Shown: positions 4,329 to 55,892 of the stretch, piece by piece
Layout: every line of letters starts with the position of its first letter
Position numbering within the stretch: position 1 is the first letter of the stretch
NCBI GenBank assembly: GCA_948144175.1
Contig: CANXME010002459.1
Span: 62,001-126,000 of the forward strand
Direction: 5' to 3'
DNA length: 64,000 nucleotides
Source: Closterium sp. NIES-65
Lineage: Eukaryota; Streptophyta; Zygnematophyceae; Desmidiales; Closteriaceae
The notes under the pieces: generated by a model
What the model was told of the DNA's origin: nothing
The model's database searches: none
Seen by the model: the letters and a program-made list of their open reading frames with translations, nothing else
Program-made: the position numbers and the translations under genes

Positions 4329-4341
4329 CACTCCCCCTCAG
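4329..4341 (-). other. Polypurine tract of A1
   Basis: On the minus strand CTGAGGGGGAGTG lies directly upstream of the 3' LTR start, the expected place for plus-strand priming. The same tract adjoins the A2 LTRs at 18710 and 24472. Confidence 0.8.
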
Positions 4342-4370
4342 CCTGCCGGCTGCATCCCCATCATTCCATA

Positions 4371-8951: not shown

Positions 8952-8982
8952 AGCTACCTATATCGAGGATCACTATAACGCA

Positions 8983-8994
8983 GCTCTGATACCA
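8983..8994 (-). other. Primer-binding site of A1, tRNA-iMet
   Basis: Minus strand TGGTATCAGAGC matches the complement of the plant initiator-Met tRNA 3' end over 12 nt. Three nucleotides (AGC, 8995-8997) separate it from the LTR. Confidence 0.9.
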
Positions 8995-8997
8995 GCT

Positions 8998-17616: not shown

Positions 17617-18709
17617 TGTTGGTGTAAGGGCCTAATAAACTCAAGCTATTAAGACTTTATCACACTTAAAACCTCTCCTCGGGGTCACCTCCAAGGGTCC
17701 TTGGGTGCCTGGTACAAGACCAGCCCCTATCCTCGGGTCCGAGTTTGTAGAGAGAGGGATCAAGAGGGACTTAGTCAAAACAGCAAGAGTACCTTGAACG
17801 TCGCGCAGCGTATCGTGCAGACCGTCGATCGGATTAAGCTGAGAATTTCCTATATCGAAGCTCACTCTAAGAGCTTTAAAATAAGCCAAGTTGCCTCGCG
17901 AAAAGTTCTGCCATTACGAAGTTATGGCTCGGACAGCGTTAGCCTAGCGTTGGAGTGCTAGCGTACTAGCGTTGACTCGGGTAGCATTCCGCCGTCGCAC
18001 CGCGTAGAAAAGAAATTCCAGCAAGGAAGGAATTCGCTTGAATCAATTTCACTATATTCAGGTACAAACAGAGAAGGAATAAATAGCTCTAGCTAGCAAG
18101 GACCTTGGGAATCAACCTGGGAACAACCAGGGATGATCCCAAATAATTCCAAGCAACAGAACCAACCTGGCTGGACAAAATAGCAGGTGATAGGTTGGTG
18201 AACAACCTCTGGTTCTGTTTTTCCAACCTGGGAAAACAACAACCAGGTTCAGGTCCTAAAAACAGAACCTGTTTTGTCTTTGCCCAACCAGCCAAATGCT
18301 GGTTCCGCTGGTTTCCCCTGGCCCTGTAGCATGCAGATACAGACAAACAACATCCAACCTTCACCTAAATTGTACCCCTATAGTGCCTGCCCTGCTACAC
18401 TATAGTCAACCAAACAAAACAGTACAATTTCGAGTTGGATAGAACTGAATCTGCGCAATCAAGTAAGTTGAACCGCAAAGCTTCCATCTTGGGTTCCTTT
18501 GCGAGCTCGTCCTTTCTGCTTGTACTGTTCATAGCGCGTACAATGTTATGCCGAAGCGCACATTGTGCGAGTACCTGCAAATGCTTCAAGCGAAAATTGC
18601 GAAAGCAAACAAACACACAAACATACCATTCACACGCAAATGCATTCGCACACGCATACTCGTACAAACAGACGGCAGGATGTCGTGCAATGTGAATTTG
18701 CACCCAACA
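17617..18709 (-). repeat. Left (3') LTR of A2
   Basis: 1,093 bp, TGTTGG to CCAACA. It carries A2-specific bases against A1 (for example CACATTGTGCG instead of CACATTTTGCG), shared with the right LTR. Confidence 0.95.
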
Positions 18710-18751
18710 CACTCCCCCTCAGCCTGCCGGCTGCATCCCCATCATTCCATA

Positions 18752-21700: not shown

Positions 21701-23332
21701 TCTGGCCGACACTTTCACACCAACCCCTCCAACGGCGTTGCACTCCCCCTGGGATGCAGACCCCTCTCTAGCCTGCCCCTCACCATGCCACGCCAGCGCC
21801 GGCAGCTGCCACATGGATCTGTACACGTCCTTGCTCTCGTGCAGATCCCAAAGCACCCGATTGCCCAGCTTCCCCTTATAAGTGCGAGCCCCATCCGTGT
21901 TGGTGTTCACCCCAGCCTTGCCAAGCTTACGGAGGGAGATGAGGTTGGCCTTCAGGTCGGGGACGAGGAGAACGTCGTGCAGCACCACCGGCTTGCCATC
22001 CGCTCCCTTAAATGCAGCTCGTCCCGCACCAGCCACCTTCAACATGTGTCCAGAGGCAGAGCACACCTCATTAATCGGTGCAGCGCGTACGTCGTCCAGC
22101 AGGTCCTTGCGCGGCGTCATTGTCCAAGCAGCGCCTGTGTCCAACACCCAATAGTCCAGGGGGTGCAGCTCTGCTCCAGCCTTAGCAGATGCGTCTCCTT
22201 GCTCCCCCTTGTCTCCCATATGGAAGAATTGGCCCGCGGTGCGCTCCTTCTTCTTCTCCGCACCGCCGTTGCCCTTCGGGTTGTTGTCGGACGAATCAGC
22301 GATCATGTTGGCGCCGTTTTTCTGGTTCCTCCGCGCGCCGCCATCCTGGTGACGATTCTGGGGGGTCCATCCATCGGGTTTCTTATAGCACAAAAACCAG
22401 GGGTGCCCTTCCTTCTCACAATACCAGCAACTCCCTTTCATTTTGCCACCAGCACCCGACTTGCCCCCACGTCCAGATTTCGCACCGCGACCCCAACCGG
22501 TACCTCCTTGTTGGTCGTTGGAGTCGTCGTCTTTCTTTGCACCGCGTCCAGCACCACCGAAGCCACGTCCTTTGCCACGTCGGCTCCCTTGCATCCCGTA
22601 GCCGCTGCTGCCGTCGTCTCCACCCCTCAGTTGGCGGCGACGGAAGTCCTCCTCCAGAATCTTCGTCCGCACCCACTCGAGCGTCCACAAGCTCTGGTTC
22701 TGCGGCAGGCTCAATCCGCTCGTAAATTGAAGCCACGATTCCGGCAGCAGCGAGAGCATCTTCAAGCACTTTGTTTGCTCCGGGTAGGTGATTCCTGCGG
22801 TCGCCAACTTCGCGTAGAGGTCGCGCAATTTGTCCAGGACAGGTTGCACCGGCTCTCCCTCGCTCAGGCGCAACGCGGACAGCTCCCTCTCCAGCATCAA
22901 TGTTGCAACAACAGAGGTCGGGGCGTGCAGCTCCTTCAACACCGTCCACGCCTTCGGACCGCACTCAACCTCCGGCAGCAGGTGCATGACGTGGTGACGC
23001 TGGTTCAGCTCCAAACTCTGCGACATCAAGTAGTAGCCAGCCGAGGCGCGCTCGTCCCAATCTTCCTGAAGGGCGGGGTCACTCGGTCTAGGCTCCTCCC
23101 CAATCATAAGTTTCAGCAATCCGATTTGACGGAAATAAAGTTGCATTTTCCAGGCCCAATCATCATAGCCCTCACCATTGAACTTCTCGACGGTGAAGTT
23201 TTTCAGCACCTCCTTGATCAGCGAGCCCTGGCTTGTTCGCGCTCCCCTTGGCGCAGAAACACCAGAATCATGGCTGCCGCTACGATCTTGGGCTGAAGAT
23301 TCACCAGCTACCGCCGAGGTGTTGCCCGCCAT
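18752..23332 (-). CDS. Gag-pol polyprotein of A2 (Ty1/copia, 1526 aa)
   Basis: The uninterrupted ORF has the same length and domain order as A1: CCHC knuckle about 302-315, protease Asp398, integrase Asp618/Asp682/Glu718, YVDD at 1187-1190, then RNase H. Only a modest number of substitutions separate it from A1 (for example Val to Ile near residue 344, Leu to Ser near 740, Ser to Gly near 1096, Gly to Arg near 1176), none in a catalytic motif. All functional segments and the short leader are present. With apparently identical LTRs it is the best candidate for a currently competent element here, although the tandem tail shows that the locus has rearranged since insertion. Confidence 0.97.
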   Translation of the reverse strand: MAGNTSAVAGESSAQDRSGSHDSGVSAPRGARTSQGSLIKEVLKNFTVEKFNGEGYDDWAWKMQLYFRQIGLLKLMIGEEPRPSDPALQEDWDERASAGYYLMSQSLELNQRHHVMHLLPEVECGPKAWTVLKELHAPTSVVATLMLERELSALRLSEGEPVQPVLDKLRDLYAKLATAGITYPEQTKCLKMLSLLPESWLQFTSGLSLPQNQSLWTLEWVRTKILEEDFRRRQLRGGDDGSSGYGMQGSRRGKGRGFGGAGRGAKKDDDSNDQQGGTGWGRGAKSGRGGKSGAGGKMKGSCWYCEKEGHPWFLCYKKPDGWTPQNRHQDGGARRNQKNGANMIADSSDNNPKGNGGAEKKKERTAGQFFHMGDKGEQGDASAKAGAELHPLDYWVLDTGAAWTMTPRKDLLDDVRAAPINEVCSASGHMLKVAGAGRAAFKGADGKPVVLHDVLLVPDLKANLISLRKLGKAGVNTNTDGARTYKGKLGNRVLWDLHESKDVYRSMWQLPALAWHGEGQAREGSASQGECNAVGGVGVKVSARSGETDWATAHRRLGHVAMPLLKQLEKDGAVKGLKLNGQPPDDNCEICLLSKFTRFPFHSVAGRSKKPLELVHMDLVGPLPVQGHKGERYFLTIVDDWSRLMWAYPLKQKDHAASTIREDWLPFVEKQAECVVKRIRTDRGGEFLGAEMTAWLKKQGIQRELTTAYTPQSNGVAERANRTILETARALLIESGLGNSMWPHAVRHATVARNRVLTKVGDDSWVPLERWLGRKPPVDMLRVFGCMAVAHVPKTYRSKLGASAIWCVHLGLAAESKGWLLWEPSKGVLFDSRDVKFVEGMMYGSWEKQPEARVSQQMEQITMQLDLTPSVWEEGEEAAAEGGDKEKVQEAPAGGGDGVEISGSTSGAAGSEGGEQQQGKTKKPKGVIMKGWETPVSRPGRTRMATKKLTAGADVAEQQLGTEEALLILQHGYDPDEEDQPAYCFLAPAPEEPASMEEALAGPDRDKWLASRDAEYQSLLENGTWELVVLPEGKKAVQCKWVLRIKTDDKGQVTIYKSRLVAKGFMQKEKRDFNEIFAPTAKPPTLRVLLADAAVGGKFIIQMDISTAFLNGILEEEVFMTQPPGYEDGTGRVCKLKKSIYGLKQAPRCWYQKLAAVLEEMGFRTSSCDESLFLKREGEKLVLFLVYVDDILLFSSSMKEIQKVQQQLMENFKCKNLGEVKYYLGMHVERDLDHRWLKLHQEKFIKELGEKYGIENERKVATPLPAEFKLVKAAEDEGVEAEEQQQFQSLVGSLLYAAVHTRPDISFSVGQLARVVQNPSEDQVDAAERVVKYLNSHPSIGVQYSASAQVKQKGVEVLKEKGERLGEGKLFLTCFTDATWASEKEDSSSVGGYICVVGGGPVSWRSKKQTETALSSVESEYMAMFHGVKEVIWLRRLLEEIGQEQKVATPLFCDSKGALGMARNAVLHGLNKHMRIKWHWLRKEVKRGTVNPIYIKTHQQPADFLTKRLADESHWRCVRMSGMSMN

Positions 23333-23363
23333 AGCTACCTATATCGAGGATCACTATAACGCA

Positions 23364-23375
23364 GCTCTGATACCA
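23364..23375 (-). other. Primer-binding site of A2, tRNA-iMet
   Basis: Minus strand TGGTATCAGAGC, three nucleotides from the LTR, identical to A1. Confidence 0.88.
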
Positions 23376-23378
23376 GCT

Positions 23379-24471
23379 TGTTGGTGTAAGGGCCTAATAA
23401 ACTCAAGCTATTAAGACTTTATCACACTTAAAACCTCTCCTCGGGGTCACCTCCAAGGGTCCTTGGGTGCCTGGTACAAGACCAGCCCCTATCCTCGGGT
23501 CCGAGTTTGTAGAGAGAGGGATCAAGAGGGACTTAGTCAAAACAGCAAGAGTACCTTGAACGTCGCGCAGCGTATCGTGCAGACCGTCGATCGGATTAAG
23601 CTGAGAATTTCCTATATCGAAGCTCACTCTAAGAGCTTTAAAATAAGCCAAGTTGCCTCGCGAAAAGTTCTGCCATTACGAAGTTATGGCTCGGACAGCG
23701 TTAGCCTAGCGTTGGAGTGCTAGCGTACTAGCGTTGACTCGGGTAGCATTCCGCCGTCGCACCGCGTAGAAAAGAAATTCCAGCAAGGAAGGAATTCGCT
23801 TGAATCAATTTCACTATATTCAGGTACAAACAGAGAAGGAATAAATAGCTCTAGCTAGCAAGGACCTTGGGAATCAACCTGGGAACAACCAGGGATGATC
23901 CCAAATAATTCCAAGCAACAGAACCAACCTGGCTGGACAAAATAGCAGGTGATAGGTTGGTGAACAACCTCTGGTTCTGTTTTTCCAACCTGGGAAAACA
24001 ACAACCAGGTTCAGGTCCTAAAAACAGAACCTGTTTTGTCTTTGCCCAACCAGCCAAATGCTGGTTCCGCTGGTTTCCCCTGGCCCTGTAGCATGCAGAT
24101 ACAGACAAACAACATCCAACCTTCACCTAAATTGTACCCCTATAGTGCCTGCCCTGCTACACTATAGTCAACCAAACAAAACAGTACAATTTCGAGTTGG
24201 ATAGAACTGAATCTGCGCAATCAAGTAAGTTGAACCGCAAAGCTTCCATCTTGGGTTCCTTTGCGAGCTCGTCCTTTCTGCTTGTACTGTTCATAGCGCG
24301 TACAATGTTATGCCGAAGCGCACATTGTGCGAGTACCTGCAAATGCTTCAAGCGAAAATTGCGAAAGCAAACAAACACACAAACATACCATTCACACGCA
24401 AATGCATTCGCACACGCATACTCGTACAAACAGACGGCAGGATGTCGTGCAATGTGAATTTGCACCCAACA
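23379..24471 (-). repeat. Right (5') LTR of A2
   Basis: 1,093 bp. I see no difference from 17617-18709. It is followed not by host DNA but by polypurine tract and pol 3' end, so it also sits in the position of a 3' LTR for the duplicated fragment. Confidence 0.95.
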
Positions 24472-26893: not shown

Positions 26894-27193
26894 CTTCAAA
26901 TTTTCGGACGGAAAATCATCAGCTCCTCTAATGACTTAATGTCGGGGGTTGCACAATAAAACTGAATGTCAATGCATAAAATAAATATAAAAGAACAAGA
27001 TAATATCTTACCACCAGCGCTCATCTTGAGCTTTGAAAAGAAGATGACCTCCAAGGAAAATAGGCAACCTGCAAGGAAAGTCATCAGACCTAAAGGGAGA
27101 AACAGGCGACCTGCGAGAAGAAACAGACGGGGTGCAATAATGAAACAAGGAATACAAGCAGAAACTACATGAACTACCACGGAATGCAACGAC
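26894..27193. other. Unassigned AT-rich sequence with possible minus-strand splice donor
   Basis: No family match. On the minus strand GGTG/GTAAGAT near 27015 resembles a splice donor after a short open frame, but I cannot support a gene. The last five bases (27189-27193, ACGAC) are the target duplication of element F. Confidence 0.3.
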
Positions 27194-27437
27194 TGTCAAG
27201 AATAATATATATCTCTATATATTGTTTTGTAACTGCCTGTAGTGTAGACTACTGTAGTTATATAATGTTCTGTTTGGTGGTGCACCTTTCTTCTTGCCTA
27301 TTTGTACTGCTCGCTCTATAGTGAAACCCCTCTTTTTTGTTGAAACTTCTCGACTTTCCCAAACTCACTCGAGCTCAATCGCTTCTACCCAACTTACTAT
27401 GGCTCCTAAGCCTAACGCTCACTAGTACTTCTTCACA
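27194..27437 (+). repeat. 5' LTR of F
   Basis: 244 bp, starting TGTCAAGAAT and ending CTTCACA. An AT-rich palindromic stretch (ATATATATCTCTATATATT) lies near its start. Confidence 0.93.
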
Positions 27438-27500
27438 TGATATCACAGTGAGGTTCCTATCCTAGGACCTGATTTTTTTTTTTTTCCCATGGGCCCACCG
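27438..27500 (+). other. Primer-binding site, hairpin and GGGCCCACC box of F
   Basis: TGATATCACAGTGAGGTTCC (27438-27457) resembles the iMet site without the gaps seen in family C. It overlaps GGTTCCTATCCTAGGACC, which can fold with CCTA/TAGG and GGT/ACC pairing. A T-run and then GGGCCCACC (27490-27498) follow, in the same order as in family C. Confidence 0.75.
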
Positions 27501-28323
27501 CTTATCGTTCTTGCCATGGCGCTCGTCGCGGCCCCAACAGTGCCCGTTCGGCCGCTATTCGTGAAGCTTACGAAGTCCAGCGTGGCGGGCTTAGTGCTGT
27601 TCGTCGCGGCCCCAGTCGGCGGCCCAGTCGTCTCCCCTTCTCGCCCTCCTGCAACCTCGTCACGCCATGTCGCGGCCCCGAGCGTCTACATCGACGGTCG
27701 CTTTGGGGGGAGACGGCGGGTGTGGCGGCCGAGCTACTTATGTCGCCGAACGCGCCCCCTGCCCCGCCCTCCCGTCGAACATACCGCTGCTACCACTGCA
27801 GCTGCCACGCAAGCGACAGTGCAGCAAAGTGGGGGGGAGGTTTTGGGGAGGCGGGTGTGAGCAAGAAGCTGCCGCCCCTCCTCTCTCTCTCACTGCCGCA
27901 CGTGCCGCTGTGGGGGGGGGAGTGAGGGGGCGACGGAAGTCAGCCGGTCATCTGCTGCTGACGCCCGCTGCTGCCGTGGCACCTCCAACTGCCGCCCCTG
28001 CTACCACCTACCTTTTGTTGTCCTTGTTTCTGCTACCTACTGCTGGGGCCTGCAGGTGGTGCCGTCGAGCCGCTGCTGTCCTGCCGCATGTTGCAGCCAC
28101 AGAGCCTGCTCCTCAGGCGACCTGCCGCCCCAACACCTGCTACTGTTTTTTTTTTACCTTGGTAAAGGGGTTGGTACAGCTAGATCTGCCATCACTGCAC
28201 CGGTTGCCACTGCACTTGCCTGTTGCTATGTTTTCCGCTGCGGCCTATCTGGTGTACCCCATTATGGGGGCGTTGACTGCATATTCTTCCCTACAGGCAC
28301 TTATGGGGGCGTGTCAAGAATAA
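27489..28323 (+). other. Internal region of F: overlapping open frames of unknown meaning
   Basis: Frames 27489-27860 (123 codons, ATG) and 27667-28323 (218 codons, running into the 3' LTR) are open but Ala/Pro/Arg-rich. No Gag, knuckle, protease or transmembrane signature convinces me. They may be compositional or may encode a small element-specific protein. Confidence 0.3.
28300..28311 (+). other. Polypurine tract of F, with a second copy 40 bp upstream
   Basis: CTTATGGGGGCG abuts the 3' LTR and matches the family C tract TATGGGGGTG. A second ATTATGGGGGCG lies at about 28261-28272. Confidence 0.75.
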
Positions 28324-28555
28324 TATATATCTCTATATATTGTTTTGTAACTGCCTGTAGTGTAGACTACTGTAGTTATATAATGTTCTGTTTGGTGGTG
28401 CACCTTTCTTCTTGCCTATTTGTACTGCTCGCTCTATAGTGAAACCCCTCTTTTTTGTTGAAACTTCTCGACTTTCCCAAACTCACTCGAGCTCAATCGC
28501 TTCTACCCAACTTACTATGGCTCCTAAGCCTAACGCTCACTAGTACTTCTTCACA
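28312..28555 (+). repeat. 3' LTR of F
   Basis: 244 bp, read base by base as identical to 27194-27437. Confidence 0.93.
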
Positions 28556-28698
28556 ACGACTACGCTGGCTGATGCTTCGCGTCGGCGCGTAAGGGCTGAA
28601 ACAACAGAAAAACAGGTAAACAAGATGAGCCGAAGGAGAAAAAAGGCCAACTATGCTCGTAAGTCCGAAGACAATAGGGGAGTTCCATCTCACGTACT

Positions 28699-28822
28699 TG
28701 TGAAAGTTTAGAAGTAAGAAGAGGGTTGCACTAGCAAGAATGAGGATACAAATAGCAAACCCTAGAAGGGTTGTACTCGCTATAGAGGACCCCACTACAG
28801 GCTAGAGCATAATATTCTGACA
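28699..28822 (-). repeat. Solo LTR of family C
   Basis: 124 bp. On the minus strand it runs TGTCAGAATATTATG to CTTTCACA with the family C middle (TGTAGTGGGGTC, GAGTACAACCCTTCTAGGG). It is flanked by the perfect duplication GTACT (28694-28698 and 28823-28827). No primer site or polypurine tract adjoins, so it is a product of LTR-LTR recombination. Confidence 0.88.
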
Positions 28823-32498: not shown

Positions 32499-32954
32499 TA
32501 CATTCCCCAATTGCAGCAAATCCTAACCGCTCCGAAAAGTTACGAACCTGTTCGCACCACACACCTGGCCAGTGCAATTGCCTGATGGTTCTGTTTCGAC
32601 GGTTGAGATGCTACGTAACCGTGCGCGACTTTTCGCGTCATTCCGTCTTTTCGCCTTCATACTCCTTACTGCGTGCTTCACTTGCTACTAATAGCAATGC
32701 ACTGTCCTTCCACAATTTATTATTCGTAACAAATCTTGCCTAGGATCACCTCAGGAAGGTTTGTGCAGAGTAAATTGCGGCGGAATTATTGGTCTGATGT
32801 GTGAGTGAATATAAAATGATAGAGATAATTATAACAAGTACATACATAGGCTTATACAATGGGAATGTACAGCTCTATTTAATATTCCTAACAACCACTG
32901 TGTGACTGGACCACAATACATTGAGTTTAATCTGGCAAATCATAGATTGACAAA
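32499..32954 (-). repeat. Internal/LTR fragments of an A-like element
   Basis: The stretch 32738-32890 resembles the beginning of the LTR at 31554 (TAGGATCACCTCAGGAAGG against TAAGATCACCTCATGAATG, then GAGTGAATNTAAA and GAGATAAT). The segment between the two shows no readable protein similarity. Confidence 0.45.
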
Positions 32955-33076
32955 TGAGAAAACTGAAACGAGAATGGTTGAACTAAGGAATGAAAGTGGT
33001 ACAAATATGCAACCCTAGAAATGTGTATCCCATATAGGCTACCCCACTACAGCCTACACAACATTATAATTTGACA
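32955..33076 (-). repeat. 3' LTR of G
   Basis: 122 bp in minus orientation, TGTCAAATTATAATG to CTCA, with the family C block GTAGTGGGGTAGCC. The polypurine tract CCTATGGGGGTG lies directly beside it. Confidence 0.8.
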
Positions 33077-43060: not shown

Positions 43061-43185
43061 TGTAAAGAATGAGGAATGAATGAACTAGCAAGCAGGTGGG
43101 TACAAGTAGGAAAACCTAGAAGTGTTGTACCCCATATTGTCTACCCCACTACATCCTACACATACTATAGGATATAAGTTTGACA
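43061..43185 (-). repeat. 3' LTR of C1
   Basis: 125 bp; minus strand TGTCAAACTTATATCC to CTTTACA. Polypurine tract CCTATGGGGATG at 43186-43197. Confidence 0.9.
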
Positions 43186-43369
43186 CATCCCCATAGGCAA
43201 AGTATGGGAGAACAAGAGGTCAGAAGACAAGTCAAGCAAAGCAAAGCAAGCTCAGGGTAGATCACAACGTCACCACAAGAGCAAGGCCACAAGGCCAGTT
43301 CACATGCAAGATCATATATAAAGTTAAACAAGCAAGTGCAGGTATAGAAAGATCACAGTACAAGCATGG

Positions 43370-45006
43370 TCAAGAAGTGAGCAAGTGAGGCCAAGTAGGC
43401 ACAAGACCTAGCATCGTACGAAAGCACTGATGATCACAAGGTGGAAGTGCCTTGGTAAAGATATCAGCAGTGTTGGCCTCAGAGGCCACGTAAGCAAGGC
43501 GCGGCTGACCAAGATGCTGCGGCTCACGAGCAAGGAAGTAGCGGAGAGCAATGTGCTTCGTTCTGTGCTCCAGTCTCTCCTCCCGACACAAGGCCAGCAT
43601 GGCCTTGTTGTCTACGTACAGAACTGGAGGAGTACGAGGCGGCTCTCCTAGGTCAGTCAGCAGGTAGGTGAGCCAGCGTAGCTCCTGTGCAGCCATGGCC
43701 CCCGCGTAGATCTCAGCCTCACTGCTGGAGCCGAGAACAGAAGACAAGCGGGTAGACCACCACGAAACAGAGCCGGAGCCAAGGCTGAAGGTGTAACCCT
43801 GTGACGACCACTGCGTAGCCTGGTCGTCAGCCCAAGAAGCATCTGCATGACCTGTGAGGACCACTCGACGTCCCCCTCCAAGCACTAGCCCCATGCCCGA
43901 CGTACTGCAGAAGTAGCGCAACACCCTCTTCGCTGCAGCCATGTGTTCTGGTCGGTGTCTCCCAGGAGCAACATAGCGTGCCAAGATGCTAAGAGGGTAT
44001 GCAAGGTCAGGTCGTGTGCAGGTCATCAGGTACATGAGGCAGCCAACAAGCTCTGGGTACGGGCCACTCGGCTCTACGGACTCATCCGAAGGCAGAGCTG
44101 AGAGCGACTGGAGAGTAGACAGAGGAGTGGCCTGAGGCGAGGAGTACGTGAAGCCGAAGCGCTGAAGGACCTGCTGCACCATGTGTGACTGAGTCAGGGT
44201 AATGGTGTGCTTTGCTCTGTCCCTGGTGATCTGCAAGCCAAGGTAGCTGCCCAGTTCATCCAGGTCTGTGCACGTGTGTCTCTTCTGCAGCTCGGACTTC
44301 ACGTAGGCGAGTCCAGCAGTGTCAGCTGTGGCAAAGACCAAGTCGTCGACGTACACAAGGATGTATAACAGCGGCAAAGAGGTGTCGGTGCGCAGAAACA
44401 GCGACGGGTCGGTACTAGAAGGAGCAAACCCAAGAGCCGCAAGTGCAGTCCTCAGTGTGTCGTGCCACTCACGGGCCGCCTGGCGGAGACCGTAGACTGG
44501 CCGCCGGAGGCTCCATTTGGTACAAGGGGGAAACGACCCAGTGAAGCCAGGTGGGTGGCGCAGCCAAATCTCCTCGTGCAGGCTGCCCTGCAGAAAAGCA
44601 AACTGAAGTCAAGAGAGTGAAGCTTGTAGTCGCGCTGAGCGGCTATGTGCAGCAGCACCCGGAGAGTGGTCATCTTTGGGGTGGGAGAGAAGGTCTGATA
44701 GTAGTCAACTCCCTGCCGCTGACTGAAGCCTCGAGCCACGTAACGCGCCTTGAAGATAGGCGGAGAACCCGGCGGCCGCTTCACCCTGAAAATCCACATG
44801 CCACTGACGATGTTCGCCCTAGGTAGGGGAACCTTGTTGACGTAGGTGCCTGTGGACTTCCAGAAAGCCATCTCTGCGTCCATGGCTGACTGCCACTGAG
44901 AGGAGAAGGGACCCTTGATCGCCTGAGCGTACGATCGAGGAGTCGGGATGTCTGGTGCATTCGGGTCTCCCTCAAGGGCAATCAGCGTGGACAAGAGATG
45001 AGGCAA
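43370..45006 (-). pseudogene. RT-RNase H of C1, frameshifted
   Basis: The first part (45006-44452) has EGDPNAPDIPTPRSYAQA, FKARYVARGFSQRQG and LRVLLHIAAQRDYK, then a frameshift near 44595 in the LDFSTAF motif. The second part (44377-43370) continues in another frame with ILVYVDDLVFATAD, YLGLQITRD, LTQSHMVQQVL, CTRPDLAYPL, DASWADD, EAEIYAGAMAAQ, VDNKAMLALC and IFTKALPPCDHQCF, ending LLTS. The catalytic YVDD is intact. Protein order and spacing match G and H. The frame break alone prevents a complete polymerase. Confidence 0.88.
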
Positions 45007-46138
45007 AGCAGCAGCAAATCACTGGAACTCCTCCTGCCTCTCCTCAAGGTCGTCTGTGCTAAGAGCACACTCACCCCCGACGGACAGAGGACAGATAGAC
45101 TCCGACTCAACAACAAGACTAGTGGCGTAGTCTAGATGACAGCAAGCAGCGAAGTCGACATGCTCAGCAAGAACAGGAAGAGAGGACTCTGGAGGAGACG
45201 GCAACGGGACACGCAGAGGAGCAGTGGAAGGACGCAGTGCCATCTGGTGTGTGCGTGGGACCGCAGGAGGATGCGGAGGCGGAGCACGACGACTAGTGCA
45301 AGCAGCACGAAGAGGCGACGCGGGACAAGACGCAGGCTCACGACGCTCAGCAAGACCTCCAGTGGGACTAGTGGAGGGAGAAGGAGCAGGAAGAGGGGAG
45401 GCGGGCTGTAGCTGTGACTGCGACTGGACAGGTTGTGGACTCTCTAAAAAACACAGGACCAGTAGAGGGCGGGAGACCAAGAACCTGCTCAAGGAGCGGA
45501 ACGAAGTACGGCCGCGGCCACGCAGCGTCTCCAGAACCACCATGGACAGCACCAGTACCCCCAGCGGCAGCACCAGCAGTACCTCCAGCTCCAATAGCGC
45601 CAACTCCAGCACCCGCTGAAGCACCAGCGCTAGCAGAACCACCAGCGCCAACACCTCCAGCAGCTCCAGCTCCAGCAGGACCGACAGCTACAGTATCGCC
45701 AGCAGCTCCAGCAGTACCTCCAGCAGGACCAACTCGAGCAGCCCCAGCAGCACCCCCTGTCCTAGCAACTCCAGCACCGCCAGCACGAGTACCTCCGGGA
45801 CCAGCAGCAACAGTAGTACCTCCAGCTCCAGCAGCACCGCTGCAGCGCCGGGCAAACCACTCGCGCTGCTCCTGTGGAGAGAGTGGCTCCTGCCTCGACG
45901 AAGCCACGCGAGCGGCCGTAGAAGCAGACCTAGCACCCCCAGGCTCCGCACCCCGAGGCTCAGCACCCCCACACTCAGCACCCCCAGGCTCAGCACCCCC
46001 AGGCTCAGCACCCCCAAGCTCAGCACCCCCAAGCTCAGCACCCCCACGCTCCGCACCCCCAGGCCCAGCACCTCCAAACCCGGCACCCGCAGGCTCAGCA
46101 ACTCTAACAGCACCATAGTGAACAGCTACCTCGACAAG
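45007..46138 (-). repeat. Integrase-RT linker of C1 with 15-bp tandem repeats
   Basis: Minus-strand units of GGTGCTGAGCCTGGG (about 45940-46080) encode Gly-Gly-Ala-Glu-Pro/Leu pentapeptides, followed by Ala/Gly- and Pro/Ser-rich segments. H (55060-55140) and G (35940-36120) carry the same unit type; N has a Gln/Glu type instead. Confidence 0.75.
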
Positions 46139-47378
46139 CTAGACTGCGTCTACGTGGGACACACCTGACAGGGCAGGGCCCTGAGGGGGGAGGGGGTCTA
46201 CCGGGGGAGGACCTGGCGCAAGGAAGAGCGGCGGCGGGGGGAGGGGCGCAGTGCGGTAGGGGAAGAGACGGTAGTAAGGTACCGACTCGTCAAAGGTGAC
46301 GTCCTCGGAGGACAGAACACGGCCCGAGGTGGGGTGGTAAAACTGCCACCCAGGCACGTCAAGGGGGAAGCCAAGGAAGACGCAGGGAACAGCACGGGGG
46401 GACAGCTTGTCCGCAGACAAGTTGCGGACAAACGCCCGAGATCCCCAGACCTGAAACGCAGACGCATCGCCAACCTTCCCTGTCCACCGCAATGTGGGGG
46501 AGGTATTTGGCAAGGAGACCCGGGGCTGAAGGTTGAGTTGATGCGCTGCGTACTGAACCGCAAATAGCCACAGAAAATGGGGTGCAGCCGCATGGATCAT
46601 GCACGTACGAGCGACGTCCATGACCATGCCAATGCGGCGCTCAGCAATCCCATTTTGCTGTGAAGAGGCCGGAAGCATGAAGGTCTGGCGGATGCCCTGT
46701 GCATGACAGAAGGCTCCCAGACAGGTAGAGGAAAACTCCCCGCCTCGGTCAAAGTGCAGACGCAGAACAGGAAAGTCCGAGCTGAAACTCTCTCTGAGAT
46801 GGAGATGAGCTACGCGGATCTAGTCGATCAACACCGTAGTGACGTCACCCTTGCTGCGCAAGGGGAAGACTGTGGTGTAACGCGAGTAGACGTCAACCAC
46901 CAACTGGAAGTAATGCTTGTGCCCCTGTCCACAAACGCGGGCGGGGCCCCACACGTCCATGAGGAGAGTCTGCAGCGGAGCCTCTGTCGGAGGAAACTCG
47001 GAGGAGTGAGGGGCGGTGCGCTGTCGCCCCTCGATGCAAGGGAACGCAAGTAGGGGCAGGTCCCGGGGGTAGGGGAGGAAGAGACCGGGGGAGACCAGAG
47101 ACAAGGACACGGGAGGCCGTGCCTCGGAGAGGAGGCAGGGAGGGGTGACCAAGACGGTGGTGCCAAAGGAGAGTCTGGTGGGACAGGAGACGACACGAGA
47201 AGGGAGCAGACTCGGGACCAGACTTGGAGGCTGCAGTAAACACTTGACTCGACGCAGTTACTTGGCCAGACTCAGCAGCCAGAGGAGACTCAATAGTAAG
47301 TGTGTACAGGCTCGACCCTGGTCGACGGGTGAACGTTGCCAAGTGTCGGCCTGTCCGAGCACACGTGCAGTGGGTCAC
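46139..47378 (-). pseudogene. Integrase of C1
   Basis: Zinc region LLWHHRLGHPSLPPL (about 47210), core start LLMDVWGPARV (about 46970), core VVDVYSRYTTVFPL with VDD changed to VDV, then a stop after VLID at 46820. The C-terminal half in a further frame holds QQNGIAERR (catalytic Glu, about 46650) and LSPRAVPCVFLGFP. The equivalent of the second Asp lies between readable frames. At least two frame changes and one stop are visible, so it is inactive. Confidence 0.82.
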
Positions 47379-47417
47379 TCGCTGACTCGCAGGAGTGAAC
47401 TGGTCAACCCCCCTATC

Positions 47418-47846
47418 CTATAGGTCAGCTCCACTCACCAAGTTCGTAGAGAACGAGGGGAGGAAGAGACCTGACAGGGCGCCAGAGGGGGCTGCCGGGC
47501 ACGGTAAAACAGTGGAGATGCTAGCAAGGACAGGACCCCCAGAGTGGACCGCGAGGGAGCCTGCAACCGGCCGACTAAGCGGCGTAAGCATGGTGCAGTC
47601 TCGAAAGAAGGAGCGGGAAGCACCCGAGTCAAGGGTGAAGGTGTGTAAGGCCTGAGCCGACGTAGTACCAGAAAGGGCAGACTCACCAGCACCTGGGGCA
47701 GCAGACGCACTAGCACGTGGGGCAGCAGATGCACTAGCACCTAGAGCAGCAGCCTCACCAGCACCTAGAGCAGCAGCCTCAATGCCCGGGTTAGGCGGAA
47801 CACACAGGTAACAGTCACCCTCAACACTAGCAGACACAGCATACAT
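47418..47846 (-). pseudogene. Protease region of C1
   Basis: It begins in the acidic EGDCYLCVPPNPGIE segment and passes through Ala/Gly/Ser repeats of the ALGAGEAAALGAS type. It has the aspartic protease active site FTLDSGASRSFF and ends at a TAG (47418-47420) where B2 has a CAG (Gln). The repeats between Gag and protease are shared with B2 and E. Confidence 0.8.
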
Positions 47847-48128
47847 GGCAGCAAGAATAGCATTATAGTCAAGATCAAAGTTGGCAACCCCCGCCCTAGA
47901 CAGATCTCCCCAGCGAGGGATCTCTGACGCCTCAGGGAACTGGTGATGCCACGCGTCCGTCAGGCGGCCAAAGCAGCGCTGGGTGGAGTGCGGGCCCGCG
48001 CACTGCTCACCAGCGCGGTCGCTGGTACGGAGGACGTAAGTGCAGGGGCCAGTACCCCCAGCGCGCTGAAGCGCAGCGTACCACTTACGAAGCTGCTGAG
48101 GGGTCAGGGTCTCACGATTGCGCTGCTG

Positions 48129-49200
48129 CTACTGACGCGGACCACCACCGGACCCACTCCTCTGCGCAGAGTCGCGACCAGCTCCACCGCTGCCGCCGCC
48201 GCCACCTCTGCTGCCTCCACCACCTCCGCCGCCTCCGCCACCTCCGCAGCCTTCGCTCCCTCCGCCACCACCGCCGCCTCCTTCGCCGCCACTGCTGCCA
48301 CCGCCGCCGCCACCCCCGCCACCACTCCCTCCACCACCCCCATCCCCTCCACTGCCTCCACCAACACCTCCACCATCCCCGCTAGCCCCTTCAGCTCCCT
48401 TGCCCCCTTTGCCTTTGCGGGTGCAGGGTCTCTTGCTAAGGGGAGACGCAGCGCCGACCCCGTAGAAACCAACGAGGTCGGCCGCAGCAGCAGAAGCAAG
48501 AGAGGGCAAGAGGGGGGAGGGGGAACACCCCTCAAAGACGGGGGTGCGAGGGTCACCAGAAGAGGCTCCTACAGAGACTATGCTCTTCTCTGCTGCTAGA
48601 AGGCGCTCCTTGAGGAGGTCAACGGTGAGCGTGGTTGGGCAAACTGAGAGGAAGTGGCCTTTGACTAAGCGAAGGGAGTCAGGGAGCCGACTAACTACGT
48701 AGTAGAGGGTGATGTACATGGGGGGGGGGGGGGGGGGGGTTCTTGGCGCAGAACTCACTAGGAAGGGAAGCGCTGTAGCGAGTGTCACTAGTGCGGAGGT
48801 GCGTAATGAGGTCAGCGACTGTGGGAAAGGCAGCAAGGTCAGGGAAGAGGTACGGTAGCATGAGGCGGCTCAGTGCAGCAGTGGCAGGAGAAGAGTAGCG
48901 TGCAACTACAGTGTTGTTCAAGGTCTGAGCTCTCTTGTACTGGCTAAAGTGCGCACGCTCAATGCTCGGTAAGTGGCGACGCACAGCAAGAAGGGCAGCA
49001 GCATTGCGTGTCGCCCACTGTGAGCGAACAGTGCTGTCAGCAGTAGCAGGCGGGGCAGGGGAGGCACTAGAGGTGAGGTCGAACAGGGAGAGGCCGTCTG
49101 CCCTATCGCACTGGAGGAACAGCTGGAGGTCATCGACCCGAACCTCAAAGTCAACAGCACGACCCTCAAGATCAAAGGTAAGAACACTGGTGGTAGCCAT
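48129..49200 (-). pseudogene. Gag of C1, frame change at a 20-C run
   Basis: ATG at 49200 opens MATTSVLTFDLEGRAVDFEV, then DDLQLFLQCDRADG and ARYSSPATAALSRLMLPYL. At 48720-48739 the minus strand has 20 consecutive C immediately before ATGTACATC. The upstream frame terminates shortly after, while the rest of Gag (MYITLYYVVSRLPDSL, SVCPTTLTVDLLKERLL, KGKGGKGAEGAS, then a long Gly/Ser tract 48170-48420) lies in another frame. B2 has the same arrangement with 14 C. The Gly-rich tract precedes the PQQLR segment and a Cys/His box in the remaining gag sequence. Confidence 0.82.
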
Positions 49201-49269
49201 GACTGCAGTGGCCTAGCAAGGAGTGATCTCACCAGTCCGAGTAAGTAGGGCCGAGGCGTGCCGGTAGGT

Positions 49270-50110
49270 CTAGGAGCGGCTCGACGGCAGGGCGGCTCGG
49301 CGGCTCAGCGGCTCAGCTGCTAGGCGGCTCGGCAGTCGGGCGGCTCGGCTGTCGGGCGGCTCGGCGGATCAACTGCTGGGCGTCCCGGCAGCTGGGCGGC
49401 TCAGCGGCTCGGTTTCTGGGCGGCTTGGGGTTTCTGCTGTTGGGCGGCTCAGCTGCTGGGCTGCTCGGTAGAGGCGGCGTTGGGGCCGCTATGGGCGGCG
49501 ACGGGGCCGCTTAGGGAGGGGAGCGACGACGGGCCGTGTAGTGGGCGGCGACGGGGCCGCGTAGGAAGGGGGGGGGGCGGCGACGGGGCCGCTAGGGGCG
49601 GCGACAGGGCGGAGTAGAGGCGGCGACAGGGCCGCGTAGGGGCGGCAACGGGGCCGCTTAGGGGCGGCGACGGGGCCGTGTAGGGGCGGCAGCGGGGCCG
49701 CTTAGGGGCGGCGACGGGGCTGCGTAGGGTGAGAGGCGGCGACGGGGCCGCTAGGGGTGGCGACGAGGCCGCTAGGGGCGGCGACGGGGCCGCGTATGGG
49801 CGGTGACGGGGCCGCGTAGGGTGAGAGGCGGGGACGGGGCCGATAGGGGTGGCGACGTGGCCGCTAGGGGCGGCGATGGGGCTGCATAGGAGCGGCGACG
49901 GGGCCGCGTAGGGTGAGAGGCGGCGACGGGGCTGCTAGGGGCGGCGTCGGGGCCGCGTAAGGGCGGCGACGGGGCCGCGTAGGGGCGGCGACGTTGCCGC
50001 GTAGGGTGAAAGGCGGCGACGGGGCCGCTAGGGGCGGCAACGGGGCCGCGTGAGGGGCGGCGACGAGGCTGCTAGGGGCCACTAGGGGGCCTGGAAAGGG
50101 CGGCGAATAA
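49270..50110 (-). repeat. Leader minisatellites of C1
   Basis: Array 1 (about 49480-50090) has units around GGGGCCGCTAGGGGCGGCGAC. Array 2 (about 49290-49460) has units around CGGCTCGGCTGCTGGGCGG. Both lie between primer site and gag ATG, in the same order as in B2 and B2a. Confidence 0.75.
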
Positions 50111-50181
50111 GGCGCGGCTCGGGCAGGAGCGTCTGGCGCTCCGGTCAGAAAGGAAACTTTCAGTGGTGGGCCCAAGGAAGT

Positions 50182-50210
50182 GTTCCCACTAGGGAACCTG
50201 CTCTATGCCA
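50182..50210 (-). other. Primer-binding site plus hairpin of C1
   Basis: Minus strand TGGCATAGAGCAGGTTCC overlaps GTTCCCTAGTGGGAAC; the loop differs from B2 (TAGT against TCGT) while the stem is unchanged. GGGCCCACC lies nearby at about 50167-50175. Confidence 0.82.
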
Positions 50211-50335
50211 TGTGAAGAATGAGGAATGGATGAACTAGCAAGCAGGTGGGTACACGTAGGTAAACCTAGAAATGTTGTACCCCATATTGTCTATCCCACT
50301 ACAACCTACACTGACTATAGCATATAAGTTTGACA
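50211..50335 (-). repeat. 5' LTR of C1
   Basis: 125 bp; minus strand TGTCAAACTTATATGC to TTCTTCACA, with the primer site immediately after. Confidence 0.9.
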
Positions 50336-50939: not shown

Positions 50940-52059
50940 CTGCTGGTTAGGAGTTGAAGTTCTCCAAGCTCTAATGGTTGGGCTACCAAGCTCAAAGCCT
51001 TCGAGACGCCTATTCGAGGTTCAGGATCTCTTGCGCTGCAATTCCATAATTTCTGCAGGCACGCCTAACGCCATGTTTCCTAAAGTGCCCACTAACAGGC
51101 ATAGGGCATGTAGTTGAAAAAGATGCAAAAAATAGTGGGACTAGATGGAAGTTTTGGAATGAGAAGGAGCTCGGCTGGTTGGAAACGAGGACCACCTGCT
51201 CTGGTAGGAGACGAGATGAGCAGCACTGGCAGTAGGAACAGGACTATGAAGCATGTTTATATGGGTAGTGTTGACAGCGTGAAGGTTTACCCCGAGCTAT
51301 TTCCCAAGCCAAATATTACACCCATCCCACACTTTGCGAAAGCGGTCAAGCAATCCCTTCACCACGGACTTCAATCGAGGACCCACGAGGAATAGACCAG
51401 AACGTTAAACGCTAGAGCACGAGAAAATAACATCGCTTAACTTTGTTGCGAGTCATTTAGATAAGTACCGAACAGCACTACACAGAACATGCGAAGTCAA
51501 GAAATCACAGGGTGCTTTGTTTCTGCTTTCGAAACAAATGTTTCTGTAAAATACGCCAAAACATTGCACACGTCGGTGTTGTGTACATGGCTAAGTATGG
51601 TCCCAAAAAACATACCAGCCATAGCAACGCGACAACTGCGCAGCTGGATAAAGAGCTGTTCAGCAAACAAGGACAGAGCAACAGGTTTAATGACGTGGAC
51701 CTTTCCACGCGTGGAAGCGAGGCATATAAGTTGAACGAATAAGAGGCTTGTTGCCTGCAAAGCTGGCAACATTGTCGAAGTCACTAGAAGGCTGGCAGCT
51801 GCCGGTGACGTCATGGGAAGCTGGCACGAACAATCCATTTCAAGCGTGCATCGAGCCAGACAAAACTTAACAATGGCACGGTGGACACAGCACAGCTAAG
51901 AGCCAACCGTGCACTAGTCAGCAAGGCAGGAAAGGCTACCCAGTTGCGCGGCAGAAGGCCAGCATGCAACTGCGTAATGATTACTAGGCGTGACGAACTA
52001 TCGCCAACAACGCACGGGTGAAGTGTGAGAGGTCCAATTAAGACAAGGGTTAAGAGGGG
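50940..52059. other. Upstream flank of the unknown spliced gene
   Basis: Open frames occur on both strands (plus 51114-51395, minus 51497-51838), but none has a recognisable domain. A possible minus-strand start MALGVPAEIMELQRKRS near 51073 hits a stop after 17 codons. Bases 52055-52059 (AGGGG) are the target duplication of H. Confidence 0.3.
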
Positions 52060-52188
52060 TGAGAAAACTAGAACGAGGAATGAAAAGACTAAGTGAAAGT
52101 AGGGTACAAATATAAACCCCTAGAGATCTCTACCCCATATATGCTACCCCAGTATAGCCTACAGTAGCTATGTCATATAAATCTGACA
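52060..52188 (-). repeat. 3' LTR of H
   Basis: 129 bp; minus strand TGTCAGATTTATATGAC to TTTTCTCA. Confidence 0.9.
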
Positions 52189-52402
52189 CACCCCCATAGG
52201 CAAAGTGGGGGAGAACAAGGGGTCACAAGACCAGTCAAGCAAAGCAAAGCAAAGCAAGCTCAGGGTGGATCACAACGTCACCACACATTCCGAGCACAAG
52301 TTCAAGGCCACAAGGCCAGTTCACATGCAGGAGTACACATATATAAAAAAGGCTAGACAAGCAAGAGTAGGCGTATACATATATGTAACAGTACAAGCAA
52401 GG

Positions 52403-55140
52403 TCAAGAGGTGAGCAAGTGAGGCAAGGCACGCACAAGACCCAGCTGAGTACACAAGCGCTGATGATCACAAGGCGCAAGTGCCTTGGTGAAGATATTAG
52501 CAGTGTTGGCCTCTGAGGCCACGTACGCAAGACGCAGCTGACCAAGCTGCTGTAGCTCACGAGCAAGGAAGTAGCAAAGAGCAATGTGCTTCGTTCTGTG
52601 CTCCAGTCTCTGCTCTCGACACAAGGCCAGCATGGCCTTGTTGTCTACGTACAGCACTGGAGGACAACGAGGCAGATCTCCAAGGTCAGTCAGCAGGTAG
52701 GTGAGCCAGCGAAGCTCCTGTGCAGCCATGGCCCCGGCGTAGATCTCAGCTTCACAAATGGAGCCAAGAACAGAAGACGAGCGGGTAGCCCGCCACGAAA
52801 TAGAGCCAGAACCGAGGCTGAAGGTGTAACCTTGTGATGACCGCTACGTAGCCTGGTCGTCTGCCCAAGAAGCATCTGCGTGCCCAGGGAGGACCACTGG
52901 ACTCTGCCCTCCAAGCACAAGCCCCGTGCCCGACGTACTGCACAAGTAGTGCAACACCCTCTTCGCTGCAGCCATGTGCTCTGGTCGCTGTCTCCCGGGA
53001 GCAACATAGCGTGCCAAGATGCTAAGAGGGTATGCAAGGTCAGGCCGTGTGCAGGTCATCAGGTACATGAGGTAACCAACAAGCTCTAGGTACGAGCCAC
53101 TCGACTCTACGGACTCATCCGAAGGCAGAGCTGAGAGCGAGTGGCGCGTAGGCAGAGGAGTGGCCTGAGGCGAGGAGTACGTGAAGCCGAAGCGCTGAAG
53201 GACCTGCTGCACCATATGTGACTGAGTCAAGGTAATGGTGCGCTGTGCTCTGTCCCAGGTGATCTGCAAGCCAAGATTGCTGCGCAGTTCACCCAGGTCT
53301 GTGCACGTATGTCTCTTTTGCAGCTCGAAATTCACGTGGGCGAGTCCAGCAGTGTCAGCTGTGGCAAAGACCAAGTCGTCGACGTACACAAGGATGTAGA
53401 ACGGCGGCAAAGAAGTGTCGGTGCGCAGAAACAGCGACGGGTCGGTAGTAGAGGGAGCAAACCCAAGAGCCGCTAGCTTAGTCCTCAGTGTGTCGTGCCA
53501 CTCACGCGGTGCCTGGCGGAGACCGTAGAGTGGCCATTGGAGGCTCCACTGGGTGCCAGGAGGAAAAGTCCAAGTGAAGCCAGGTGGGCGGCGCAGCCAG
53601 ATCTCCTCGTAGAGGCTACCCTGCAAGAAAGCAGGGCTGAAGTCAAGAGAGTGAAGCTTGTAGTCGCGGTGAGCGGCTATGCGTAGTAGCACCCGAAGAG
53701 TGGTCATCTTCGGGGTGGGAGAGAAGGTCTGAAAGTAGTCAACTCCCTGCCGCTGACTGAAGCCACGAGCGACGTACCGCGCCTTGAAGACAGGCGAAGA
53801 GCCTGGCGGCCGCTTCACCCTGAAAATCCACATGCCACTGACGATGTTCGCCCAAGGTGGGGGAACCTCGTCAACGTAGGTGCCTGTGGACTTCCAGGAA
53901 ACCATCTCTGCGTCCATAGCTGCCTGCCACTTAGAGGAGTAGGGACCCTCTATCACCTCCGCGTAAGAGCGCGAAGTCGGGATGTCAAGCGCATCCGGGT
54001 CTCCCTCGGGGGTAAGCATTACGGACACGAGATAAGGTGAAGCAGCAGCCAGTCACTCGAACTCCTCCTACCTGTCCTCAAGGACGTCCGTGTGAAGGGC
54101 ACACTCACCCCCGACGGACGGAGGATAGACAGACGCAGACTCAGCAACAAGACTAGCAGCGTAGTCGAGACGACAGCGAGCAGCAAAGTCGACTAGCTCA
54201 CCAACGAGGGCAGACGCAGCAGTGGACTCAAAGGAAGGGTCAGTGACGACAGTAGCAAGGAGACGCGTGACAGTAGGACTGGCAGCACAAAGAGAGTCTG
54301 ACTCCGGGTCGGCAAGAGCAGGAAGAGAGGACTGAGGAGGAGAAGGCAAGGGAACACGCAGAGGAGCAGTGGACGGACGCAGAGATATCCGATGCGTGCT
54401 AGGGACAGGAGGAGGATGGTGACGCGAACCGCGACCACTAGTGCGAGCAGCACGGACAGGCGACGCAGGGCAAGACGCAGGCTCACGACGCTCAGCAAGA
54501 CCTCTAGTAGGACCACTGTAGGGAGAAGGAGCAGGCAGTGGGGAGGCCGGCTGTAACTGTAACTGGGACGGGACAGGCTGCGGACACTCTAAGGGAGGAG
54601 GAGGACCAGTAGAAGGCGGGAGACCAAGAACCTGCTCAAGGAGTGGAACAAAGTACAGCCGAGGCCGCGCGGTGACTCTAGACACAGCAGGGACAGCACC
54701 AGTACCCCCAGCAGCAGCACCAGCGCCAACAGCAGCACCAGCGCCAACAGCACCTCCAGCTCCAGTACGTCCAGCAGCACCAGTAGCAACCCCAGTAGGA
54801 CCGCCTCCAGGACCGACAGTAGGAGCCTCAGCGCCAACACCCTCAGCAGCTCCAGCACTCCCAGTACGAGCACCTCTGGCACCCGCGGCACCAGCACCCT
54901 CAGCAGCCGAAGAAACTCCAGCTCCAGCAGCACGCCTCCAGCGCCGGGTAAACCACTCGCGCACCTCGTGTGGAGAGAGTGGCCCCCGCCAAGACAAAGC
55001 ACCCGGAGAACCTCCAGGCCCAGCCCCCGCAGGCTCCTCACCCCCAGGCTCAGCACCTGCAGACGTGGCACCCCCACGCTCAGCACCTCCAGACATAGCA
55101 CCCCCAGGCTCAGCACCCCCAGGCTCAGCACCCCCAGGCT
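52403..55140 (-). pseudogene. Linker-RT-RNase H of H, one frame with stops
   Basis: A single frame runs from the linker (55096 leftwards; Ala/Gly-rich with RPRLYFVPLLEQVLGLPP) through RT (KARYVARGFSQRQG, LDFSPAFLQGSLYEE with Thr changed to Pro, catalytic ILVYVDDLVFAT, CTRPDLAYPL) into RNase H (DASWADD, SICEAEIYAG, DNKAMLALC, IFTKALAPCDHQRL). Stops interrupt it: TAG 54068-54070 and TAG 52844-52846, both at Gln positions, plus a nearby TGA at a Cys position. There is no frameshift. The upstream domains are absent. Confidence 0.87.
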
Positions 55141-55149
55141 CGGGGCCGT

Positions 55150-55680
55150 AGGGGTAGGCGACGGGGCCAGCAGAGGCGGGGCCGGGTTGGGAAGGGCGGC
55201 GTCGAGGCCGGAAAAGGGGCGGCGCCGGGCCGCGGTGGAGGCGACGGGGCCGCAGGGCGGCGGATCGGGGTCGGGAAGGGCGGTGCCGGGGCCGCGGGGT
55301 AGGCGACGGGGCCGCAGGGCGGCGGATCGGGGCCGGGAAGGGCAGCGCCGGGGCCGCAGGGCTAGGCGACGGGGCCAGCAGAGGCGGGGCGGGGTCAGGA
55401 AGGGCGGCGTCGGGGCCGGAAAAGGGCGGCGCCGGGGCTGTAGGGTAGGCGACGGGGCCGCAGGGCGGCGGATCAGGGCCAGGAAGGGTGGCGCGAGGGC
55501 CGCGGGGTTGGCGACGGGGCCGCAGGGCGGCGGATCGGGGCCGGGAAGGGCGGCGTCGGGGCCGCAGGGCTACGCGACGGGGCCGCTAGGGCGGCGGATC
55601 GGGGCCGCGAGGGCGGCGCAACGCAGCCGCTAGGGCGGCGCGACGAGATCAGAGAGGGGAGCCCGACTCGGGTAGGAGCT
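55150..55680 (-). repeat. Leader minisatellite of H
   Basis: Units built on GGGGCCGCAGGGCGGCGGATCGGGGCCGGGAAGGGCGGCG recur several times (55250-55560); longer periods alternate with short GGCGACGGGGCC units. The array meets the linker repeats at about 55140 with no intervening gag-protease-integrase sequence. Confidence 0.75.
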
Positions 55681-55729
55681 GAGCGCGCTCCGGGCAGGAA
55701 AAAAAAAATTGAATCGGTGGGCCCTAGGA

Positions 55730-55761
55730 ACAATTCCCACGAGGGAACCTGCTCGATACCA
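55730..55761 (-). other. Primer-binding site plus hairpin of H
   Basis: Minus strand TGGTATCGAGCAGGTTCC followed by GTTCCCTCGTGGGAAT, one stem-end base changed. GGGCCCACC lies about 10 nt further on. Confidence 0.8.
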
Positions 55762-55892
55762 TGAGAAAACTAGAACGAGGAATGAAATGACTAAGTGAAA
55801 GTTGGGTACAAATATAAACCCCTAGAAAGCTGTACCCCATATGTGCTACCCCCCACTATAGCCTACAGTAGCTATGTCATATAAATCTGACA
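55762..55892 (-). repeat. 5' LTR of H
   Basis: 131 bp, very similar to 52060-52188 apart from small indels. Confidence 0.9.

Follow-up and report, generated by a model that had tools for sequence, protein, structure and literature searches.

As described in the parts of the literature on which we draw, TRIMs consist of two LTRs, a primer site and a polypurine tract, are flanked by a 5-bp duplication, have no coding capacity and are thought to be mobilised in trans (PMC4717578; PMC10886601). They are known from green algae (PMC4717578); the part of Gao et al. available to us names Chlamydomonas, Volvox and Chondrus, and in that part no zygnematophyte is named. Mobilisation in trans without LTR homology has been proposed (PMC10886601). 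Helenus TRIMs, for example, carry tRNA-related sequence in a gene-less LTR element, and their mobilisation by elements with dissimilar LTRs has been suggested (PMC10886601). Another known passenger is the Gag-less BARE2 of barley, which is packaged in the particles of its autonomous relative BARE1 (PMC3735527).

LTR elements also differ in how they engage their primer tRNA. In yeast Ty1, an extended contact with tRNAiMet is established, in which Box 0 and Box 1, two further leader segments, join the primer site in pairing with the tRNA (PMC5454406). Hemiviruses (Ty5, copia and Osser) use half-tRNA priming, in which the half that bears the anticodon stem-loop of a host tRNA is engaged; in Ty5 this host tRNA is the initiator tRNA (PMC1181622). 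Among the titles and abstract openings listed in searches of the open-licence literature on TRIM mobilisation, TRIMs in Zygnematophyceae, Closterium retrotransposons, extended and half-tRNA primer sites, and parasitic LTR elements, none described the leader arrangement reported here.

In this study, we analyzed a 64,000-nucleotide stretch of DNA from Closterium sp. NIES-65 (the window), and in particular element F, a gene-less LTR element of 1362 bp with two LTRs (Table 1). The sequence-only reading that preceded this work had described F as a compact element with identical 244-bp LTRs that end in TGTCAA...TTCACA, a perfect ACGAC duplication, an iMet-like primer site that runs into a hairpin, and no pol. 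Each of these points was borne out. For pol, the three longest frames of F had no Pfam match reaching the cut-off.

Table 1. Positions in the window of the features of element F and of two family C elements used for comparison
Feature	Position	Strand	Basis or remark
Target-site duplication, left, ACGAC	27189..27193	+	Sequence reading, copy comparison
5' LTR, 244 bp, TGTCAA...TTCACA	27194..27437	+	Identical to 3' LTR
F LTR segment alignable to the LTR bodies of certain family C-type elements (window 32951-33076 minus; L051; L053)	27238..27351	+	Shuffle tests
Primer-binding site (18 nt, antisense to initiator tRNA-Met 3' end)	27438..27455	+	3 mismatches in window copy, 0 in L012
Antisense-iMet continuation (T-arm and variable loop), 13/16 nt	27456..27471	+	Within predicted leader hairpin
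Predicted leader hairpin	about 27447-27474	+	Folding
T-run, length variable	27473..27485	+	Copy comparison
Box ATGGGCCCACC, core GGGCCCACC at 27491-27499	27489..27499	+	Antisense to anticodon-stem 5' strand and part of loop, initiator tRNA (stem limits judged by eye from the tRNA sequence)
GC-rich internal region, no conserved open frame, no Pfam match at cut-off	27500..28301	+	Copy comparison, Pfam
Polypurine tract TATGGGGGCG, directly before 3' LTR	28302..28311	+	Sequence reading
3' LTR, identical to 5' LTR	28312..28555	+	244 bp
Target-site duplication, right, ACGAC	28556..28560	+	Sequence reading, copy comparison
Family C comparison element, LTRs about 131 bp (93% alike), RVT_2	52059..55892	-	Box at 55716-55724
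Family C comparison element, LTRs about 125 bp (92% alike), partial RVT_2	43062..50335	-	Box at 50165-50173

With its paired LTRs, 5-bp duplication, primer site, polypurine tract and lack of coding capacity, F has the make-up of a TRIM as described in the sources available to us. At 1362 bp, however, it exceeds the limit of <1000 bp (PMC10886601), while lying within the 1172-1449 bp of gene-carrying TRIMs (PMC4717578), and we therefore call it TRIM-like rather than a TRIM in the strict sense. It also differs from TRIMs in that its leader bears a long stretch antisense to iMet.

Two other possible contents of F were considered and rejected. A coding function was rejected, since the longest open frames shift in position and frame between copies and the three longest of the window copy have no Pfam match at cut-off. 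A tRNA-like fold was likewise discarded: Rfam gave no match at gathering score in the window, and none up to E 5 within 27400-27560. Near the 3' end, the 16-mer TATGGGGGNGTGTCAA from the polypurine-tract region had six window matches at up to three mismatches, with 1.63 expected and none of 100 shuffles reaching six. The 12-mer TTATGGGGGCGT around the polypurine tract is present twice, at 28262-28273 and 28301-28312 (39 bp apart), and F may possibly have a second polypurine tract upstream of the main one.

The genome (874 Mb, 2400 contigs) was searched with the whole of F, as the sequence-only reading had suggested. Among 2635 candidates, the 40 scored loci (window included) held 60 matching pieces, and 39 of these loci are F-like loci additional to the window copy. 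Full or nearly full-length F was present at 22 of the 40 loci, with 91-100% identity. At 18 of the 40, the match broke into two around F position 625, and wherever both halves were listed some 250 additional bp lay between them; six members of this subgroup, which carries its extra sequence at this one place, were fetched (L023-L028). Together with the 22 full or nearly full-length loci, this made 28 fetched loci, of which the mis-parsed L014 was dropped to leave 27 parsed copies.

LTR pairs in the 27 copies showed 0-6 mismatches, gap columns being left out of the count (12 in L013 and 25 in L015), and the 26 copies other than that in the window were 1325-1610 bp long. An exact 5-bp duplication, as parsed, flanked 13 of the 27, a number that is a floor because the parsed LTR end was off by one base in several others. 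Copy counts need correction, since the assembly has duplicate contigs carrying the same insertion (L003/L006/L009, L016/L017, L020-L022, L026/L027 and L002/L005, with 150-bp flanks 0.99-1.0 alike); the 13 duplication-bearing copies thus correspond to 11 separate insertions. Despite its identical LTRs, the window copy differs by 2.4% from the nearest of the 26 other aligned copies, among which (with 40 of 2635 candidates scored) there was no near-identical sister. Its parent either lies outside the scored loci or is missing.

The leader of F was compared with the initiator tRNA of the same genome. Genes for iMet were located by a 24-letter pattern, which had 28 genome matches, and all 12 fetched loci (L029-L040) were called tRNA-Met (CAT) by ARAGORN. 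The T-stem strand reads CGAGG in nine of these, CCAGG in two and CTAGG in one, and the reverse complement of the main form (CGAGG), with A and CCA added, served as the query. The CTAGG variant would match one more base of the F leader. The alignment starts at the first base after the LTR. In the best copy, L012, it covers 18/18 nt of the primer site and 13/16 nt of the T-arm and variable loop (31/34 nt), and ATGGGCCCACC follows in full after the T-run; the window copy matches at 28/34 nt. Beyond the first 18 nt, a match as good was obtained in 1 of 2000 shuffles for the window copy, and in none of 2000 for any of six further F copies. The corresponding numbers for the leaders of four family C elements in the window were 107, 707, 111 and 9 of 2000, no better than the 59 of 2000 for a family A control without a box. 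In family C the box is retained and the T-arm match is not. Because its hairpins no longer follow the tRNA, the box is the one part of the family C leader past the primer site that supports tRNA pairing, whereas in F both leader segments are complementary to the primer tRNA. In the leader of L002, the predicted pairing energies of the T-arm strand and of the box with the tRNA were equalled in 10 and 11 of 1000 shuffles, respectively.

By analogy with yeast Ty1, the antisense leader is most likely an extended contact with the primer tRNA. As in Ty1 (PMC5454406), the iMet-type primer site of F is accompanied by further leader segments complementary in sequence to the tRNA. According to the Ty1 account available to us, the two differ in that the Ty1 boxes are 6-7 nt long and pair with the T or D hairpins, whereas the far box here has 9 nt (11 in F) and corresponds to the 5' strand of the anticodon stem; the T-arm match of F is, moreover, continuous with the primer site. 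The arrangement also differs from that described for hemiviruses, in which the anticodon region is itself the target of the primer site. Here, a 3'-end-type site adjoins the LTR, and the complement of the anticodon stem lies about 40-50 nt further in. The tRNA-related sequence of Helenus is different again: as described, it is tRNA-like, lies in the LTR as a proposed promoter and has no primer-site complementarity, whereas that of F is antisense and adjoins the primer site.

The combination of primer site and box is by no means restricted to F. The primer site followed after 22-52 nt by GGGCCCACC (the cassette) had 26,948 matches in the genome (13,307 + 13,641), a count that includes duplicate contigs, and the reversed-pattern control had 2 (1 + 1). 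The primer site plus one hairpin type had 13,509 genome matches, and several hairpin types occurred among about 100 cassette places listed. In the genome stretch common to both listings, the exact box was present in 50 of 56 primer-site/hairpin sites, and the sequences after the box differed among the 12 loci read. Taken alone, the 9-mer box with one mismatch allowed would be expected 27.4 times in the window, where 12 matches were counted, 5 of them exact; it is the fixed place behind the primer site, not the box itself, that exceeds chance.

These counts show that the signals shared by F and family C are not private to the two: the layout of primer site and box recurs in many subfamilies. 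The sequence-only reading had itself allowed that the boxes might prove common to unrelated families, and this was so in part. In the family A elements of this window, no box follows the primer site, which is a plain TGGTATCAGAGC. The cassette is therefore not a general copia feature in this genome. The T-run that had been described as preceding the box in both groups is found in F, where the box is exact, and in some other subfamilies, but the box is not preceded by a T-run in the four aligned family C leaders of the window.

The sequence between primer site and box appears to be kept as a structure. Each of 25 distinct leaders, hand-picked from the approximately 100 listed places plus two F leaders, folded better than its own shuffle mean (24 with z below -1, mean -2.56), although with different stems. 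RNAalifold on a gapped alignment of these 25 leaders gave no consensus hairpin, and stem length in single leaders was significant in only 8 of 44; the hairpin claim is based on the energy test. A hairpin retained while its sequence changes between subfamilies, and one that in family C does not follow the tRNA, would also suit a packaging or dimerisation signal read by Gag, in which the palindrome GGGCCC of the box would join two RNAs by a kissing contact, its likeness to the anticodon stem being coincidental or secondary; Ty1 likewise has packaging and dimerisation signals in its leader, as far as the source at hand describes them (PMC5454406). We think this explanation unlikely. The primer site points to iMet, and the box is identical to one of the 67 antisense 9-mers of that same tRNA, a set to which only 17 of the 63,992 9-mers of the window belong, boxes and primer sites included. 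In order and strand, primer site and box are collinear with the tRNA, and F extends the match through the T-arm.

Sequence diversity was determined for 21 F copies (L006, L009, L017, L021, L022, L027 and the mis-parsed L014 were dropped), which represent 20 rather than 21 separate insertions because the retained L005 shares flanks with L002. The 16 nt after the primer site showed 0.0% diversity, where 22-nt windows average 5%. The box region of F, at 3.4% versus the 5% mean (rank 0.48), was not more conserved than average, and the primer site was variable (7.1%). Within the latter, 19 of the 21 copies have A or T at position 3 and T at position 12. In L012 and L020, insertions that belong to different F subgroups, both positions read as the iMet base, which is what priming by iMet would lead one to expect; position 18 of L020 is not the iMet base. 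To judge from these two cases, the primer site may have been partially renewed from the tRNA.

An antisense stretch of this kind could also have arisen without function, if reverse transcriptase once read past the modified base m1A58 and on through the primer tRNA and the resulting tRNA copy became fixed in an ancestor. Such an origin would account for a match in F that spans most of the tRNA antisense, in order, and for the mismatch at leader position 19, opposite a tRNA base that we take to be m1A58. Yet a fresh read-through copy, TGGTATCAGAGCGAGGTTTCGATCC, has no exact match in the 874 Mb, and the near-constancy of the box across the sites listed, together with a T-arm stretch that is invariant in the 21 F copies, is unlike decay. 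We regard a functionless relic as highly improbable and retain an extended tRNA contact as the preferred explanation.

With regard to the LTRs, the statement that the bodies of F and family C differ had to be qualified. Approximately positions 45-158 of the F LTR align with the family C LTR at 32951-33076 over about 115 bp, with a body score of 45 against 34 for the best of 500 shuffles (0/500), and two other F copies gave 0/500 with the same LTR. The second-best window match, and a less clear one (3/500), is a family C-like LTR remnant that lies some 160 bp past F, at 28716-28822 (minus). For the remaining eight window LTRs, 15 to 267 of 500 shuffles were as good. The likeness of the F and family C LTRs escaped plain blastn at E 0.01. 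Against 13 further loci of the supergroup, the copia assemblage that includes family C, the F LTR gave 0/300 with L051, 1/300 each with L044, L052 and L053, and 3 to 144 with the other nine; the body score of 41 with L053 equalled the best of 1000 shuffles. By these alignments, the LTR body of F is distantly homologous to those of some supergroup members, a family C LTR among them; most of the other LTRs tested gave no significant match.

F has the box cassette behind its primer site and an LTR starting with TGTCA, the two features that mark the supergroup. In these signals, what F and family C share is layout, not letters. Internal coding homology between F and the supergroup was not found, and besides itself a window blastn of F found one 20-mer at 16043-16062. 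A 22-mer of F comprising LTR end and primer site had no second window match at up to three mismatches. The polypurine tract, which had been listed among the shared signals, lies in F directly before the 3' LTR as TATGGGGGCG but varies among relatives, with TATGGGGATG and TATGGGAATG in the window and TATGGGGTTG in L053.

F also departs from its relatives in LTR length: 244 bp is about twice the 121-135 bp presumed for the 13 supergroup loci, whose LTR start was taken from the motif TGT[CT]A and is confirmed by a second LTR only in L053. The approximately 86 extra bp at the F LTR end had no blastn match in the window. This difference raises the alternative that F is mobilised by a longer autonomous partner of its own with F-type 244-bp LTRs, and not by short-LTR members of the supergroup; a TRIM of rice, according to the source available, is almost entirely alike in sequence to its partner (PMC4717578). 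No such partner was among the 40 scored loci of 2635 candidates, a scope too small to reveal one, and we consider this alternative rather unlikely, if less so than a dimerisation signal.

We consider it probable that F is a TRIM-like, non-autonomous LTR retrotransposon that travels as a passenger of a very large copia supergroup and has an extended iMet contact. Its structure, many young copies, the lack of coding content found, an LTR distantly homologous to those of some supergroup members and the iMet-antisense leader are the observations on which this reading is built. A gene-less element that retains its cis signals and has many young copies must depend for its copying on proteins encoded by other elements, and the copia supergroup, family C included, appears to be their best candidate source. 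The proposed host/parasite pair is upheld with respect to a young gene-less element that needs foreign proteins, but a cassette common to many subfamilies does not single out family C as helper. F would resemble BARE2 in being a passenger of helper particles. The two differ in that BARE2, in the account available, has no gag start but possibly a translatable remainder, and is closely related to its helper, whereas nothing coding was found in F and its likeness to the supergroup is distant.

In the proposed mechanism, F would be transcribed from its own LTR, and its RNA, as we infer, packaged in trans by supergroup Gag. The initiator tRNA would initially pair through its 3' end with the primer site; pairing would then extend past that site to the hairpin strand (the T-arm, in F) and to the GGGCCCACC box (the 5' strand of the anticodon stem), and this extended contact would select and position the primer. 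The reverse transcriptase and integrase of an autonomous supergroup member would then copy F and insert it with a 5-bp duplication. To serve as a template, F would need to retain the hairpin for the stage that precedes tRNA annealing, and the polypurine tract and LTR ends for the stages that follow it.

A broader proposal, which we put forward tentatively and rate somewhat short of an even chance, is that copia insertions of this alga, in their tens of thousands, contact the tRNA in two parts, as do their gene-less passengers: through the usual 3'-end primer site and through a conserved box that invades the iMet anticodon stem. The anticodon stem of the initiator tRNA has initiator-specific G:C pairs. 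If the proposal is true, the box reads these pairs, and full-tRNA and half-tRNA primer recognition are joined in one leader; F would then be a natural minimal template whose parts list defines the cis needs of a copia helper. The 26,948 sites form a large natural data set on primer-tRNA recognition, duplicate contigs included, and the cassette offers a simple test for a second tRNA contact in the anticodon stem.

Some further observations concern the supergroup, its proteins and other elements of the window. In L053, an element with an F-like leader, the two LTRs are 99.2% alike and the flanking duplication is CACCA, which indicates that the supergroup also moved recently; its long frame stops inside the reverse transcriptase domain. 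For the family C reverse transcriptase frame (residues 500-1021), the best 120 of 8000 scored relatives were proteins of Closterium sp. NIES-53 and NIES-54, and predicted Closterium proteins with integrase, SH3 and RVT_2 on one chain exist (e.g., P0046, P0059 and P0078). A 505-aa frame of a family C element, which has no Pfam domain, gave 36 pattern matches and 0 confirmed matches in viral contigs. Another copia family has two copies in the window (3234-9562 and 17615-23943), with repeated ends 99-100% alike and a 1528-aa open frame each, without the box cassette. Finally, GC-rich short-period repeat arrays are located in or near family C elements at 37452-38082, 49445-50108, 55141-55601 and 62064-63088.
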